Below are positions 1 through 3,612 of a stretch of 64,000 bases of DNA, one piece after another (position 1 is the stretch's first letter; each line of letters begins with the position of its first letter). The stretch covers positions 1-64,000 of the forward strand of contig NZ_WKCB01000008.1 in assembly GCF_021606685.1 (NCBI RefSeq), given 5' to 3'. Both the position numbers and the translations under genes were made by a program. Origin of the DNA: Pseudomonas syringae. GTDB lineage: Bacteria > Pseudomonadota > Gammaproteobacteria > Pseudomonadales > Pseudomonadaceae. Under the pieces are notes generated by a model, which saw only the letters and a list, made by a program, of their open reading frames with translations, searched no databases and had not been told where the DNA came from.

Positions 1-67
1 ATATTATACAAATAGTCAATGCCTCCGTTGGTTTTTCTTTTAATTAACTTTAATTAATAGAGGAACT

Positions 68-949
68 ATGGGATGTTTAACCCTTTTTGAAAGCACCTTA
101 CCTAAAAAGCCTTATTGTTGTGATGATTACTTCCGTGGTATTTCACCAAGAACAAAATCAATAGCCGTTAAAAAACTACATATCCAAGCTAATGGCCCGA
201 CGCATTTAAGATGGCTAGTATTTGACATCGACCACCAAGACTCTGGAATGCTTTGGGAGCAAACAAACATGGCAGCCCCAAATATATCGGTCATGAACCC
301 GGAAAACGGCCACTGCCATTATTTCTACAACTTGGAAACACCAGTTAGAACGGCACTTGAGGCGAACATAAAACCTATTCGATACGCAGCATCAATTCAA
401 ACAGCAATGAGGAAAAAGCTGATGGCTGATGCGGGATTCTCTGGGACTATAAGTAAGAACCCTTTAAACCCTCACTGGAAGACAAAGGTCTGGAGAGATG
501 AGCCCTACTCGCTAGATGAATTGAGTGATTACGTCAAACTTGAAAAACCAGTTACAAAAAAAGAGCAGCTAGAGAATTACGGCCTAGGGAGAAACTGCAA
601 TTTATTTGAAGACCTAAGAAATTGGTCATACAAAGAAATCCGAATGAACTATCCTAACTATGCGGGATTTTACGAGTCGTGCTTCAGTTATGCTCTAAAC
701 CTTAATCTAGAACTTGCGTCACCTTTAAACATCAACGAGATAAAAAACATCTCTAAAAGTGTATCAAAATGGACGTACACGCACTTTGATAACGAAATAT
801 TTTCTGATATTCAGTCTGCAAGAGGTTCATTGAAGGGAAAGGCAAAAAGAGATATGGGCATTCAAATGCTTACGAATGGCTGTACTTCTATGGAAATTAT
901 AGCAACTCTAAATGTAACAGATAGAACAATTCGAAACTGGAAAAAATAA
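68..949 (+). CDS. rep: ColE2-type plasmid replication initiator (replicase/primase family)
   Basis: The 293-residue protein looks like the Rep initiators of ColE2-like plasmids, which bind the plasmid origin and synthesise the primer for DNA polymerase I. The N-terminal replicase region (about 10-165) has the motif series KPYCCDD, LVFDID near residue 50, NPENGHCHYFY, PIRYAA and SGTISKNPLNPHW. A PriCT-like segment follows around 175-240. The last 25 residues (GCTSMEIIATLNVTDRTIRNW) form a helix-turn-helix typical of the origin-binding end. An AGAGGA ribosome site precedes the ATG. Length is normal for the family, so it may be functional. In a chromosome it indicates an integrated plasmid or satellite. 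Upstream control RNA sites would lie mostly outside the window. Confidence 0.85.
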   Translation: MGCLTLFESTLPKKPYCCDDYFRGISPRTKSIAVKKLHIQANGPTHLRWLVFDIDHQDSGMLWEQTNMAAPNISVMNPENGHCHYFYNLETPVRTALEANIKPIRYAASIQTAMRKKLMADAGFSGTISKNPLNPHWKTKVWRDEPYSLDELSDYVKLEKPVTKKEQLENYGLGRNCNLFEDLRNWSYKEIRMNYPNYAGFYESCFSYALNLNLELASPLNINEIKNISKSVSKWTYTHFDNEIFSDIQSARGSLKGKAKRDMGIQMLTNGCTSMEIIATLNVTDRTIRNWKK

Positions 950-970
950 AAACGGAAAAAGCCATATCAG

Positions 971-999
971 ATAATAGCCTGCATGAGGCTATTATTTTT
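971..999 (+). terminator. Rho-independent terminator of rep
   Basis: A perfect 9-bp stem (ATAATAGCC / GGCTATTAT) with a 7-base loop is followed by TTTT, 21 bases after the rep stop codon. Confidence 0.85.
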
Positions 1000-1055
1000 C
1001 CCCCCAATACGTTCTGCATATTAACTCAAAAGCTAATTCTGATTATACGCTTCGC

Positions 1056-1109
1056 TTAAAGGTCAAAAAACAACTTAGCCCTCAAGTCAGCAGCATGTTT
1101 AAATGCCAT
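1056..1109 (-). CDS. Possible 17-residue leader peptide or gene remnant
   Basis: A perfect GGAGGG ribosome site at 1119-1124 stands 9 bases upstream of an ATG at 1109 that opens only 17 codons (MAFKHAADLRAKLFFDL) before TAA. I do not recognise the peptide. A ribosome site this strong before so short a frame suggests a leader peptide, a small regulator, or the surviving start of a decayed gene. No downstream gene on the same strand is visible to about 960, where the rep terminator lies in the opposite direction. Low confidence that it is translated. Confidence 0.25.
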   Translation of the reverse strand: MAFKHAADLRAKLFFDL

Positions 1110-1480
1110 TTTTGTAAACCCTCCAATTTATCCTTAGGGGGTCACGCTAAAATATTTCAACGTAAAAAAACGGCAATACCGTGCTCCCTTTAAAAAACCA
1201 CTTGTTATTTTTTTAAAAAATACATGATATTTTTCTATCCCCACTTAATTTGACAGTAGTATTTTGGCTTAAATACAACATAATTTCATGTCAATAGCAG
1301 TTTGAAAATATATTTACCATTCAACTCTAATAGCCCAATACGGTTCAACGCTATTTTTACCAAACTGTTAAATTTGACTGACGCCTTGGCGAGATGCCAA
1401 GGAGCCCATTTTGATTAGCGTCCAACCCTAATCTGGTCAATTTTCCCACTTGAACAAGTTCAAGCACGAAAACTGACCTC

Positions 1481-1510
1481 GCTGTGGAACCTATCGCAGA
1501 AAATAGCCAT
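1481..1510 (+). repeat. Att-like repeat, left copy
   Basis: This segment shares the exact core TGTGGAACCT (1483-1492), the pattern of the next bases and a terminal AGCCAT with 3135-3168, with about 19 of the first 25 positions identical. The core is flanked by an imperfect inverted pair CTGTG-N8-CGCAG. It lies 20 bases beyond the stop codon of the HEPN-like gene, so the two copies tightly bracket the AbiTii/HEPN pair. Confidence 0.5.
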
Positions 1511-1529
1511 CGGTTTGTTTATCCCTTCT

Positions 1530-2090
1530 CTAACCAAACAAGTTGGGATTAGCTTTCTCGAAACTCTCAGCACCATCAGCCCAGAGTTTATAAAAAAGCT
1601 CCCAACCCATCGCATTATTCGGCTTTCTAATTTTGGGGTTAAGTCCGGGTATAGACTCATAAAGGTTATCGTCTACCAGTTTTACGTAATTTCGGTGGTG
1701 TTCGCTTTTTTTCGCAACAGGGTATTTTGCTTGCCAATAAATTGAATGAGTATATATATCAAGGATGGCTATTTCTTTTTTACTTGCGTCGATACCTGCT
1801 CGAACTCTTAACTTATTAAGTTCGTGTGTATTATCGGGCGGAGGTTGTTTTTTTGAAACTATTACGGCTTTATAAATTAACTCTAGTGACAAACCACAGA
1901 GCATATCAAAAACCGAGTAATCGGCTCCGCTTTGAATGTTACAGTTTGACTTTAGCCATTCGCTTACCTGTTCAGTATTTGAGAGTGAAAACCACAAAGC
2001 ACCAGCAGAATTCCTCATTTCAGAGGATTTATTAAACCAATACATCGGTTCCATTTTGCGTCGTGCAAAATCGCTGTCGTAATAATCCAT
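1530..2090 (-). CDS. Small HEPN-like protein paired with AbiTii
   Basis: The 186-residue protein has an all-helical pattern recalling HEPN domains: an N-terminal segment MYWFNKSSEMRNSAGALWFS, a helix GLSLELIYKAVIV, the turn NTHELNKL, and a late YW-x-KYPV element. HEPN proteins are often RNases or toxin/antitoxin partners in defence loci. I cannot find the RNase signature R-x(4-6)-H, so activity is uncertain and a non-catalytic role is possible. I chose the ATG at 2090, with TTGAGA upstream. A GTG at 2171 overlaps the AbiTii stop codon and would add 27 residues by translational coupling. It is co-directional with AbiTii and presumably its partner. It could also be an unrelated hypothetical protein. 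Confidence 0.6.
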   Translation of the reverse strand: MDYYDSDFARRKMEPMYWFNKSSEMRNSAGALWFSLSNTEQVSEWLKSNCNIQSGADYSVFDMLCGLSLELIYKAVIVSKKQPPPDNTHELNKLRVRAGIDASKKEIAILDIYTHSIYWQAKYPVAKKSEHHRNYVKLVDDNLYESIPGLNPKIRKPNNAMGWELFYKLWADGAESFEKANPNLFG

Positions 2091-2161
2091 ATTCAAAATC
2101 TCAACAATAACGATACGAAACCTTTGGCATCGGCAGAACAGTGATGGAGTCATTCGTTTCG

Positions 2162-3052
2162 TTAACTGCACGCTGCGATTAATTGAGCGGCTAACGGCAC
2201 ATAATTAGTGAGAACGCCACCGGTTGCCCCTTCAAGAATATTCCTTACGGATATAAGGCACTCACGCAAAATCGTTTTCTTAGGCGATGAGGAACTAAGC
2301 TGTGCTTTGATAGTGTCGAGATCAGCTCTTAGCGATTGTTTGGCTTCGTCATCCCCTTTTAGTTGGTTTACGTCGTTTTTTAACTCTGAAACAAATTTTT
2401 CCAGATCTTTCTTGAAATCGGCTGTTCCGTAATACTGATTAGAATTATCACTATCCTGTTGAATTTGCGAATTGTGCATACTACCAATAGTAATAGTGTT
2501 GTAAGTAATAGATGCGGCAGCTGCCTTTTCTTCCTTTGAAAAACCCATACCTTCTCCGTGAATTCCCTGAGATTCCAATTCTAATGCGAACTGTAATACC
2601 CTATCCCGCACTCCGTAAATTATGTTTTTTAAGCTACTAGACTCGATCTGTAACCCTGGAGTCATTCGAAGATTCATACCAGCGAGAAGTTTTTCCTCTA
2701 GCTTAGCTGGAAAGGGTAATACGACACGATCATTATTGGCAGCATGTTCACATAACCTCCCGAGCGGCTGTGATATTTTCCGAGTGGTTACAGTTTCTAA
2801 TATATGCGGATTGTCAATAGTTAGCGGAATGTGTCCATGAATATCGTTATAACAAACGAGGCTACCTCTTACATGCCGGTAATTTGGTATGTCGTCACTT
2901 GACCTGTAGCCTTGCAGCTCATTGTCGATCCAAGTCGAAATACTCGGAGCGTTTAGCTTCACCGAAACGGCTTTGGCCTTTCTCATAAGTGCCATGATGT
3001 GTATCGATTCATCGAGTGCATCTGCTTGTAGTTCTTCTACTAACCCGGCCAT
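2162..3052 (-). CDS. AbiTii-domain abortive-infection-type protein
   Basis: The 296-residue protein opens with the AbiTii pattern (LVEELQADALDES, MRKAKAVSVKLN, WIDNELQGY, IPNYRHVRGSLVCYN, HGHIPL) over about residues 1-180. AbiTii is named after one component of a lactococcal phage abortive-infection system. A linker rich in Asn/Gln (about 190-210) leads to a charged, coiled-coil-like helix (FKKDLEKFVSELKNDV and on). The C-terminal module ends in a Gly-rich hydrophobic helix (ILEGATGGVLTNYVPLAAQL), which may touch membrane or a partner. The stop codon lies just before the likely coupled or following HEPN-like gene. The biochemical activity of the family is not known to me. Defence is inferred from family and island context. 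Confidence 0.75.
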   Translation of the reverse strand: MAGLVEELQADALDESIHIMALMRKAKAVSVKLNAPSISTWIDNELQGYRSSDDIPNYRHVRGSLVCYNDIHGHIPLTIDNPHILETVTTRKISQPLGRLCEHAANNDRVVLPFPAKLEEKLLAGMNLRMTPGLQIESSSLKNIIYGVRDRVLQFALELESQGIHGEGMGFSKEEKAAAASITYNTITIGSMHNSQIQQDSDNSNQYYGTADFKKDLEKFVSELKNDVNQLKGDDEAKQSLRADLDTIKAQLSSSSPKKTILRECLISVRNILEGATGGVLTNYVPLAAQLIAACS

Positions 3053-3070
3053 TCCTCATCCTCAGGCTGT

Positions 3071-3097
3071 CATATAGCCACACTCTGCACCTTGCAG
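3071..3097 (-). promoter_or_regulatory. Possible promoter and operator of the AbiTii pair
   Basis: Upstream of the AbiTii start, reading on the minus strand, a palindrome CTGCA-AGG-TGCAG (3085-3097) stands just before a TATATG -10-like element (3071-3076). A repressor bound there would overlap the -35 region. No good -35 hexamer was identified, so this is tentative. Confidence 0.3.
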
Positions 3098-3121
3098 TGG
3101 CCTAGCCGCAAGACACAAGCC

Positions 3122-3391
3122 TCAACTCAATTTTGATGTGGAACCTTTCACATAACATATCCAGCCATGCTCGCAGCCACGATAGGGGTTGATCGAGCGA
3201 TCAAACGGCAGGTCCGGCGAGTTGTTGCGGGTGATGATGGTCTTGGCCGTTTCGATACGCACTTCAGTGCCCTGGGTCGGCGGCACTTCCTGAAACCAGC
3301 CGTCGTCCTCCACCACCGACACGCTGGGCGCAAAGCGATTGTGAGGGTTGGTGGCGGTACCCCGTCCGCGAGGAGGCAGGGGAGCGTTCAT
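3122..3391 (-). pseudogene. 5' fragment of a PA0069-type radical SAM gene, cut by the island
   Basis: The first about 75 codons match the N-terminus of PA0069-family radical SAM proteins (GRGTATNPHNRF, TIITRNNSPDLPFDRSINPYRGCEHG). The family continues with a CxxxCxxC-type cluster (CEHGC-x-YC). Here the reading changes to CEHGWICYV and ends 16 codons on, so the cluster-binding cysteines and the whole catalytic domain are missing. The break is at about 3162. The remaining 3' part should lie beyond the left edge of the window on the far side of the island. P. aeruginosa PA0069 belongs to the LexA regulon, and a LexA box stands upstream here too. Confidence 0.85.
3135..3168 (+). repeat. Att-like repeat, right copy at the island junction
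   Basis: It contains TGTGGAACCT (3137-3146) in a perfect ATGTG-N8-CACAT inverted pair (3136-3153), as in a core site for a tyrosine recombinase, and ends in AGCCAT where host gene sequence begins. It is the partner of 1481-1510. Confidence 0.5.
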
Positions 3392-3407
3392 GCTGTGTTC
3401 TCGATAG

Positions 3408-3423
3408 CTGTATCTATATACAG
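3408..3423 (-). promoter_or_regulatory. LexA (SOS) box
   Basis: CTGTATCTATATACAG fits the CTGT-N8-ACAG LexA operator perfectly and lies 16 bases upstream of the radical SAM start codon. It predicts DNA-damage induction of leftward transcription into the island. Confidence 0.85.
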
Positions 3424-3612
3424 TATTCGAGAATTCCGCTTCTTGCGAGCACCGTTGGGCGGACCACCGTCCAATAGCGTATCTGACAATAAAAAGTATA
3501 ACTTCTTACTTATAATCAACATGAAACAAGTCGCCACACATGAACCATGGATTTAAGTTTTGGAACGCCTCTATGATCACGCTCCAATTCACCCATGCAC
3601 CCAAGGATATTT

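Follow-up and report, generated by a model that had tools for sequence, protein, structure and literature searches.

An AbiTii-family gene in the window, the 64-kb stretch of DNA analysed here, stands directly behind the 5′ part of a PA0069-family radical SAM gene that a mobile element has interrupted downstream of a predicted LexA box, and it is fairly probable that the element was placed there by a serine recombinase and that SOS-induced transcription would read through the fragment into AbiTii. The position and orientation of the genes, the conservation of the box, the recurrence of insertions at this gene and the finding of no intrinsic terminator can be read from the sequences compared here. 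The window comprises the first 64 kb of contig C143 in a genome of 5.9 Mb in 164 contigs.

The interrupted gene and its LexA box

The fragment (Table 1) matches NF033668 (rSAM_PA0069) at positions 1-77 of 348 (3.6e-23). Host sequence ends in the CTG at 3162-3164, about 76 codons into PA0069, which bears out the earlier claim of a truncation after about 75 codons, and the frame then runs on in element-derived sequence to 89 aa. The remainder of PA0069 (family positions 68-347) is found on a different contig (G000:C7:4258-5091), and joining of the two host flanks restores an uninterrupted GCEHGCIYCYARP reading.

The LexA box had been described as perfect and as lying 16 bases before the start of the gene. 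The box is real and the distance exact, the ATG (3391) beginning 16 bp after it, but perfection is limited to the CTG and CAG half-sites of the CTG-N10-CAG form: the box has one mismatch to CTGTATATATATACAG and agrees with the palindrome in 15 of 16 places. It is the sole site with at most three mismatches in the window, where 0.03 are expected. The whole genome holds three sites with one mismatch, the PA0069 box among them, and 17 with at most three, against 3 for a backwards control pattern. Fifteen of these 17 were fetched; besides PA0069, seven are near SOS-type ORFs recognised by eye (YebG-, UmuD- (two), RecN-, PA0922-, topoisomerase III- and exonuclease I-like), and no SOS gene was recognised by eye at the remaining seven.

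For intact loci, the first genus survey supplied the 30 PA0069 loci of lowest E-value, a non-random choice, of which the 29 with the anchor motif were scored (L004 was left unscored). A CTG-N10-CAG box was present in all 29, 243-254 bp before the anchoring motif, and it stood 15-22 bp before the ATG in 27; in the other two the script picked a GTG further upstream, which follows the box by 5 and 7 bp. Averaged over 28 distinct upstream windows, the information content was 1.21 bits per base within the box, compared with about 0.3 on either side. The search pattern itself demands CTG and CAG at the ends, but it does not impose the observed conservation of the T at place 4, of the spacing and of the A before the box; this A, directly before the CTG, was invariant in the 28 windows. 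Every split locus with a 5′ part has kept the box (16/16, each with at least 12 of 16 places). The original prediction of LexA control over the target gene is well supported by these comparisons, since the box is found in all scored intact loci and all split ones. PA0069 is reportedly a member of the P. aeruginosa LexA regulon.

The conservation pattern would fit a −10 element, TACTGT, overlapped by the box. At the first four places of the putative −35 the commonest nucleotides in the 29 intact loci are C, T, G and G (13, 15, 22 and 21 of 29), the window reading CTCG. A scan with a consensus promoter pattern did not flag this putative PA0069 promoter.

Table 1. Features of the element end and the adjoining host sequence (window positions)
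Feature	Position	Strand	Basis or remark
Replication protein, plasmid-type	68..949	+	PF03090 Replicase 8e-45, PriCT_1 1.2e-4; transcribed toward the defence pair
Second ORF, possibly HEPN (186 aa, ATG start)	1530..2090	-	PF05168 E=0.084 only
AbiTii-family gene (296 aa)	2162..3052	-	PF18864 2e-37; PADLOC PDLC02334 1.2e-40; PS655 copy
Truncated PA0069-family radical SAM gene (5′ part) with added codons from the element; 89 aa ORF	3122..3391	-	NF033668
Element-side half of attP dyad (TATGTTATGTGAAAGGTTCC)	3141..3161	.	Contains TTCACA, the -35 of a circle-only promoter-like motif
attL crossover region, CTG common to attL and attR	3162..3164	.	Host-flank join reads GCEHGCIYCYARP
LexA box CTGTATATAGATACAG	3408..3423	-	Position identical in 29/29 scored intact loci
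Putative -10, TACTGT	3420..3425	-	Overlapped by LexA box; from the invariant A
Putative -35 of PA0069 promoter, CTCGCA	3444..3449	-	Putative; 18 bp before -10

The path from the fragment to AbiTii

The stop of the fragment (3122) and the ATG of AbiTii (3052) are 69 nt apart on the same strand, precisely as first noted. The original prediction saw no hairpin with a T-run between the two genes and held that a strong terminator between 3122 and 3052 would speak against it; no intrinsic terminator of this kind was found on the sense strand there. An intrinsic terminator and a strong leader structure before AbiTii were both rejected as candidates, neither being present in the window (fold z-score −0.54). 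A terminator-like pattern with a weak T tail, seen by our own scan inside the coding fragment of a second AbiTii locus, that of P. fluorescens PS655, was counted as chance.

No sigma-70-type motif was flagged before AbiTii; this is weak evidence, because the same scan also missed the PA0069 promoter. The two promoter-like sites on the sense strand are both inside AbiTii and are no more than chance, 2.7 being expected over both strands. The window and PS655 share a conserved leader between attL and AbiTii, and AbiTii may possibly have a weak promoter of its own within it.

The element and its defence genes

Base 1 of the window is a contig end, and the island therefore runs on in another contig. 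The two ends of the element are on C143 and C7, each contig stopping inside it, and were the contig ends adjacent, it would measure about 7.4 kb. Adjoining the 3′ part of PA0069 and reading away from it are a 545-aa large serine recombinase (PF00239 2.7e-10, PF07508 1.4e-7), whose gene starts about 30 bp from attR, a NikA/MobC-type protein (NikA-like, 2.8e-10) and a relaxase (PF03432 3.5e-16). By its predicted gene content the island is an integrative mobilizable element with a large serine recombinase. A DNA search of its left end in the window (1-3160) against plasmids gave no match.

When the element ends are joined they form an imperfect dyad, GGAACCT...TAACATA / TATGTTA...AGGTTCC, as would be expected of an attP site. 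A promoter-like motif, TTCACA-N18-TATGTT (9 of 12, scored without a shuffle control), crosses the joint toward the recombinase (window 3141-3161 plus L035:4200-4268). If real, it would give the recombinase a promoter that is whole only in the circle and is split by integration.

The pair next to attL had been read as AbiTii plus a HEPN-like gene, of which the first label stands and the second is weak. Residues 4-183 of the AbiTii product score 129.7 bits with PF18864 (cut-off 27.6), which places it in the family, and the PADLOC AbiTii model gives 137.9 bits. Residues 179-280, outside the AbiTii domain, match the PADLOC candidate defence model PDC-M14B (best 1.5e-9) and, weakly, AbiTi (8e-4, PADLOC). 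The second ORF reaches 13.5 bits with the HEPN model PF05168, below the cut-off of 22. Relatives of 32-37% identity occur in three further genomes among the 398, and they indicate that the ORF probably starts at the ATG at 2090 and not at the GTG at 2171. A single-sequence structure model of its product was uninformative (pLDDT 37).

AbiTii is sparse in the genus, with matches at E≤1e-5 in 5 of 398 genomes, of which three, the window included, are full length; in the two other full-length cases the gene is away from PA0069, which is unsplit there. Relatives occur in 110 plasmid records, all below 60% identity, and scans of viral contigs for AbiTii and the second ORF gave pattern matches and no relative. 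Thirteen relatives elsewhere, 11 genes on 5 plasmids and 2 chromosomal ones, were inspected for a LexA-like box (CTG-N10-CAG, at least 10 of 16), one of the plasmid genes, at 23% to the window, being too distant for its AbiTii label to be certain. None of the 13 had such a box within 400 nt upstream, and we rejected the idea that an SOS box accompanies AbiTii in all its locations. Since these relatives lack the box, any link between AbiTii and SOS would be positional, a property of the site and not of the family; occurring elsewhere without LexA boxes, AbiTii by the same comparison does not appear to need SOS.

A run of AbiTii-like genes was seen on plasmid pAER-f909 (L075, NZ_CP026221.1, 145-155 kb), with seven that are 41-70% identical mutually and one further gene at 18-24% identity; it ends beside a umuC gene. 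By tblastn this plasmid has ten AbiTii places, and nine are on two others among the 25 records listed.

Recurrent insertion at PA0069

PA0069 was matched in 375 of 398 genus genomes and is split by an insertion in ten (G000, G009, G071, G087, G095, G101, G119, G221, G284 and G366). In a family-wide draw of 148 genomes, the window's included, 102 gave a match, in a few cases a weak one, and this draw added five split loci in three other genera (G435, G453, G470, G491 and G511). With P. fluorescens PS655, from a scan of genome contigs, this makes 16 split loci; left out were four with a broken PA0069 and no clear insertion (G080, G084, G365 and G380) and a remnant in G225. Mobile elements have repeatedly landed in PA0069. 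Serine-recombinase islands interrupt it at the codons used in the window, multi-integrase islands a few bases earlier. The serine recombinase of the window shares 33-76% identity with the five others that were aligned.

The distance from the fragment stop to the nearest co-directional ATG ORF of at least 60 aa was counted by one method over the 16 loci, with random positions as a control. Eleven islands have such an ORF within 90 nt, and random places in the same islands have one in a mean of 24% (same strand) or 17% (opposite strand); these 11 are not independent, because the 16 islands represent about four element lineages as judged by recombinases and attL sequences. The gaps are 69 nt in the window, 9 in PS655, 54 in G009, 86 in G119, 42 in G221, 11 in G284 and 54 in G435. 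The first integrase ORF lies 46-47 nt behind the fragment in G101, G453, G491 and G511, and all of these but G101 have a 79-aa ORF in a different frame that begins sooner, at 35. The gap is 482-1178 nt in G071, G087 and G366, and no co-directional ATG ORF of at least 60 aa was found in the stretch searched in G095 and G470. Behind attL, G284 and G221 have in common a pair of genes of 101 and 111 aa (L044:8892-9551, L046), and for the G284 copies neither Pfam nor PADLOC gave a match at E≤0.1.

The survey of other genomes suggested by the original prediction yielded a second AbiTii in the same orientation at this site. PS655 has kept the LexA box, the PA0069 fragment and an AbiTii 86% identical to that of the window, 9 nt after the fragment stop. 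The fragment's frame, open to this point, would favour translational coupling. The following genes differ from those of the window and encode 145 aa and 211 aa, the latter matching RiboL-PSP-HEPN weakly and below the cut-off (E=0.002). The right end resembles that of the window element by eye, and the 3′ part of PA0069 is interrupted a second time roughly 150 codons on. No recombinase, relaxase or Rep ORF was listed for this 2.8-kb island. As a side observation, it has both ends and the attL-side genes kept (L034:7560-11300).

In the parts of the islands that were scanned, six of the 16 split loci showed defence genes: AbiTii in the window and PS655, the candidate PDC-S47 in G071, and type I genes in G511, G453 and G491. 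We claim no enrichment of defence at PA0069 from this count. The placement of defence genes behind PA0069 holds for the two AbiTii loci, but other islands have small ORFs or recombinases there. Cargo is varied and often not defence, and the arrangement is not specific to defence, in which the original prediction was overstated. The candidate PDC-S47 of G071 (L038:4648-5469, 2.1e-59) lies away from attL, on the strand opposite PA0069, and the right end of the G101 island encodes a protein with a weak LmuA match (5.4e-6).

A multi-integrase operon occupies the attL end of four islands in three genera (G101, G453, G491 and G511; L049, L092, L094 and L095), its gene set encoding 784, 700, 314, 128 and 435 aa. 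Five genes follow the fragment in G511, where the 700-aa product is above the phage integrase cut-off and those of 784 and 435 aa are below. Type I restriction-modification-like genes come next on the same strand in G511, G453 and G491, and the G101 contig ends there. The G511 methyltransferase has a PADLOC match and is accompanied by specificity- and restriction-subunit-like ORFs; the same genes in G453 and G491 were recognised by eye from translations only.

Proposed mechanism and alternative explanations

We suggest that a large serine recombinase inserts the element at the conserved radical SAM motif codons of LexA-regulated PA0069, leaving AbiTii and the second ORF at the left end and pointing away from attL. 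The host LexA-repressed promoter, the first 76 PA0069 codons and the defence pair would then form one potential transcription unit. DNA damage would lead to LexA cleavage and free the PA0069 promoter, and the transcript would cross the truncated, still translatable fragment into AbiTii, lifting its level above that given by any weak leader promoter. An SOS response set off by a phage or by incoming DNA might in this way switch on the abortive-infection protein. Transcription through the fragment, its induction by damage and the benefit are what we infer. Translation to 69 nt before AbiTii, and to 9 nt in PS655, would leave little room for Rho, which could act against read-through in the 69-nt untranslated gap.

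The neighbourhood may instead be incidental, the CxxxCxxC codons having been chosen for their conservation and the cargo having its own promoter with a minor part for the SOS one, which we rate as rather unlikely. Unrelated recombinases do insert at, or a few bases from, the same codons, and the conserved motif explains the choice of site as simply as the promoter does; five of 16 islands have no co-directional ORF of the size counted within 90 nt, and the 13 AbiTii relatives elsewhere lack the box. Against this stand the 11 islands with a close co-directional ORF, about 24% being the random rate, with the reservation that the lineages are not independent, and the unflagged AbiTii leader, in a scan blind to the PA0069 promoter as well. 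The loss of PA0069 through the insertion counts against the explanation by read-through. Another account would have host SOS transcription entering at attL serve the element by driving its genes, recombinases included, at times of danger to the cell, with defence genes as passengers. It is suggested by the four multi-integrase operons so close behind the fragment and matches what passages of PMC4542609 propose for integrases behind truncated rulB, but in the window the serine recombinase is at the other end, reads the opposite way and has a promoter-like motif that integration splits; this account, too, we rate as rather unlikely.

That the window element is dying cargo, with PA0069 and AbiTii both unused, is very unlikely. 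The PS655 island has no recombinase or mobilization genes and its PA0069 is interrupted again, as decay would predict, but AbiTii has stayed full length and 86% identical between the window and PS655 despite the mobility genes being gone in PS655. Damage-induced read-through into AbiTii, the preferred reading, seems to us fairly probable. Read-through as a selected advantage is clearly less so, because the island genes are varied and the conserved codons alone explain the site. Possible but doubtful is a wider proposal, in which PA0069 serves throughout the Pseudomonadaceae as an SOS landing pad. Mobile elements with at least two unrelated kinds of recombinase would have converged on it and would have their attL-proximal genes, whether for defence or for their own recombinases, damage-switched only while integrated.

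Significance and comparison with known systems

If read-through is true, a phage-defence gene would gain damage-inducible control purely by its landing place, without a regulator of its own, and the shared PA0069 site would account for the way in which unrelated islands detect distress of the host. A testable general rule would be that defence or recombinase operons are found behind truncated LexA-controlled genes. Our literature search found no paper that joins PA0069 with LexA or with a genomic island, and among the titles none dealt with islands at PA0069 or with defence cargo placed behind a LexA promoter of the host. Within the limits of a search at title level, the novelty would be a new site and a new cargo class for an already proposed mechanism.

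The window protein has in common with AbiT/AbiTii abortive infection of Lactococcus lactis, and with AbiTii-HEPN proteins, the AbiTii domain at residues 4-183. Fusions of AbiTii to HEPN domains in other bacteria are reported in PMC3710099; they differ from the window, where the possible HEPN protein is a separate and weakly matched ORF.

GInt islands, according to passages of PMC5385486, carry a terminal operon with several tyrosine recombinases, and RT-PCR showed transcription into ginA from outside the element. The four PA0069 islands with a multi-integrase operon at the corresponding position resemble this description in gene arrangement. The available ends of the window element differ in having no visible tyrosine recombinase.

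The closest parallel is with the integron-like elements in LexA-controlled rulB of Pseudomonas, for which passages of PMC4542609 describe an integrase that follows the truncated gene at a distance of less than 100 nt; its expression from the host LexA promoter is a proposal made there, citing Jackson 2011. As far as that account goes, both cases combine site-specific insertion in a LexA-controlled gene with an element gene less than 100 nt behind the host fragment. The window differs in its target, PA0069 (NF033668), which sets it apart from rulB-type elements, and in its promoter-proximal genes, which are AbiTii and the second ORF and not the integrase that the same account describes. Tyrosine recombinases come first in the rulB elements, whereas the large serine recombinase of the window is at the opposite end. 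Should read-through into AbiTii occur, what was proposed for integrases at rulB would hold for defence cargo as well, and for another SOS gene.
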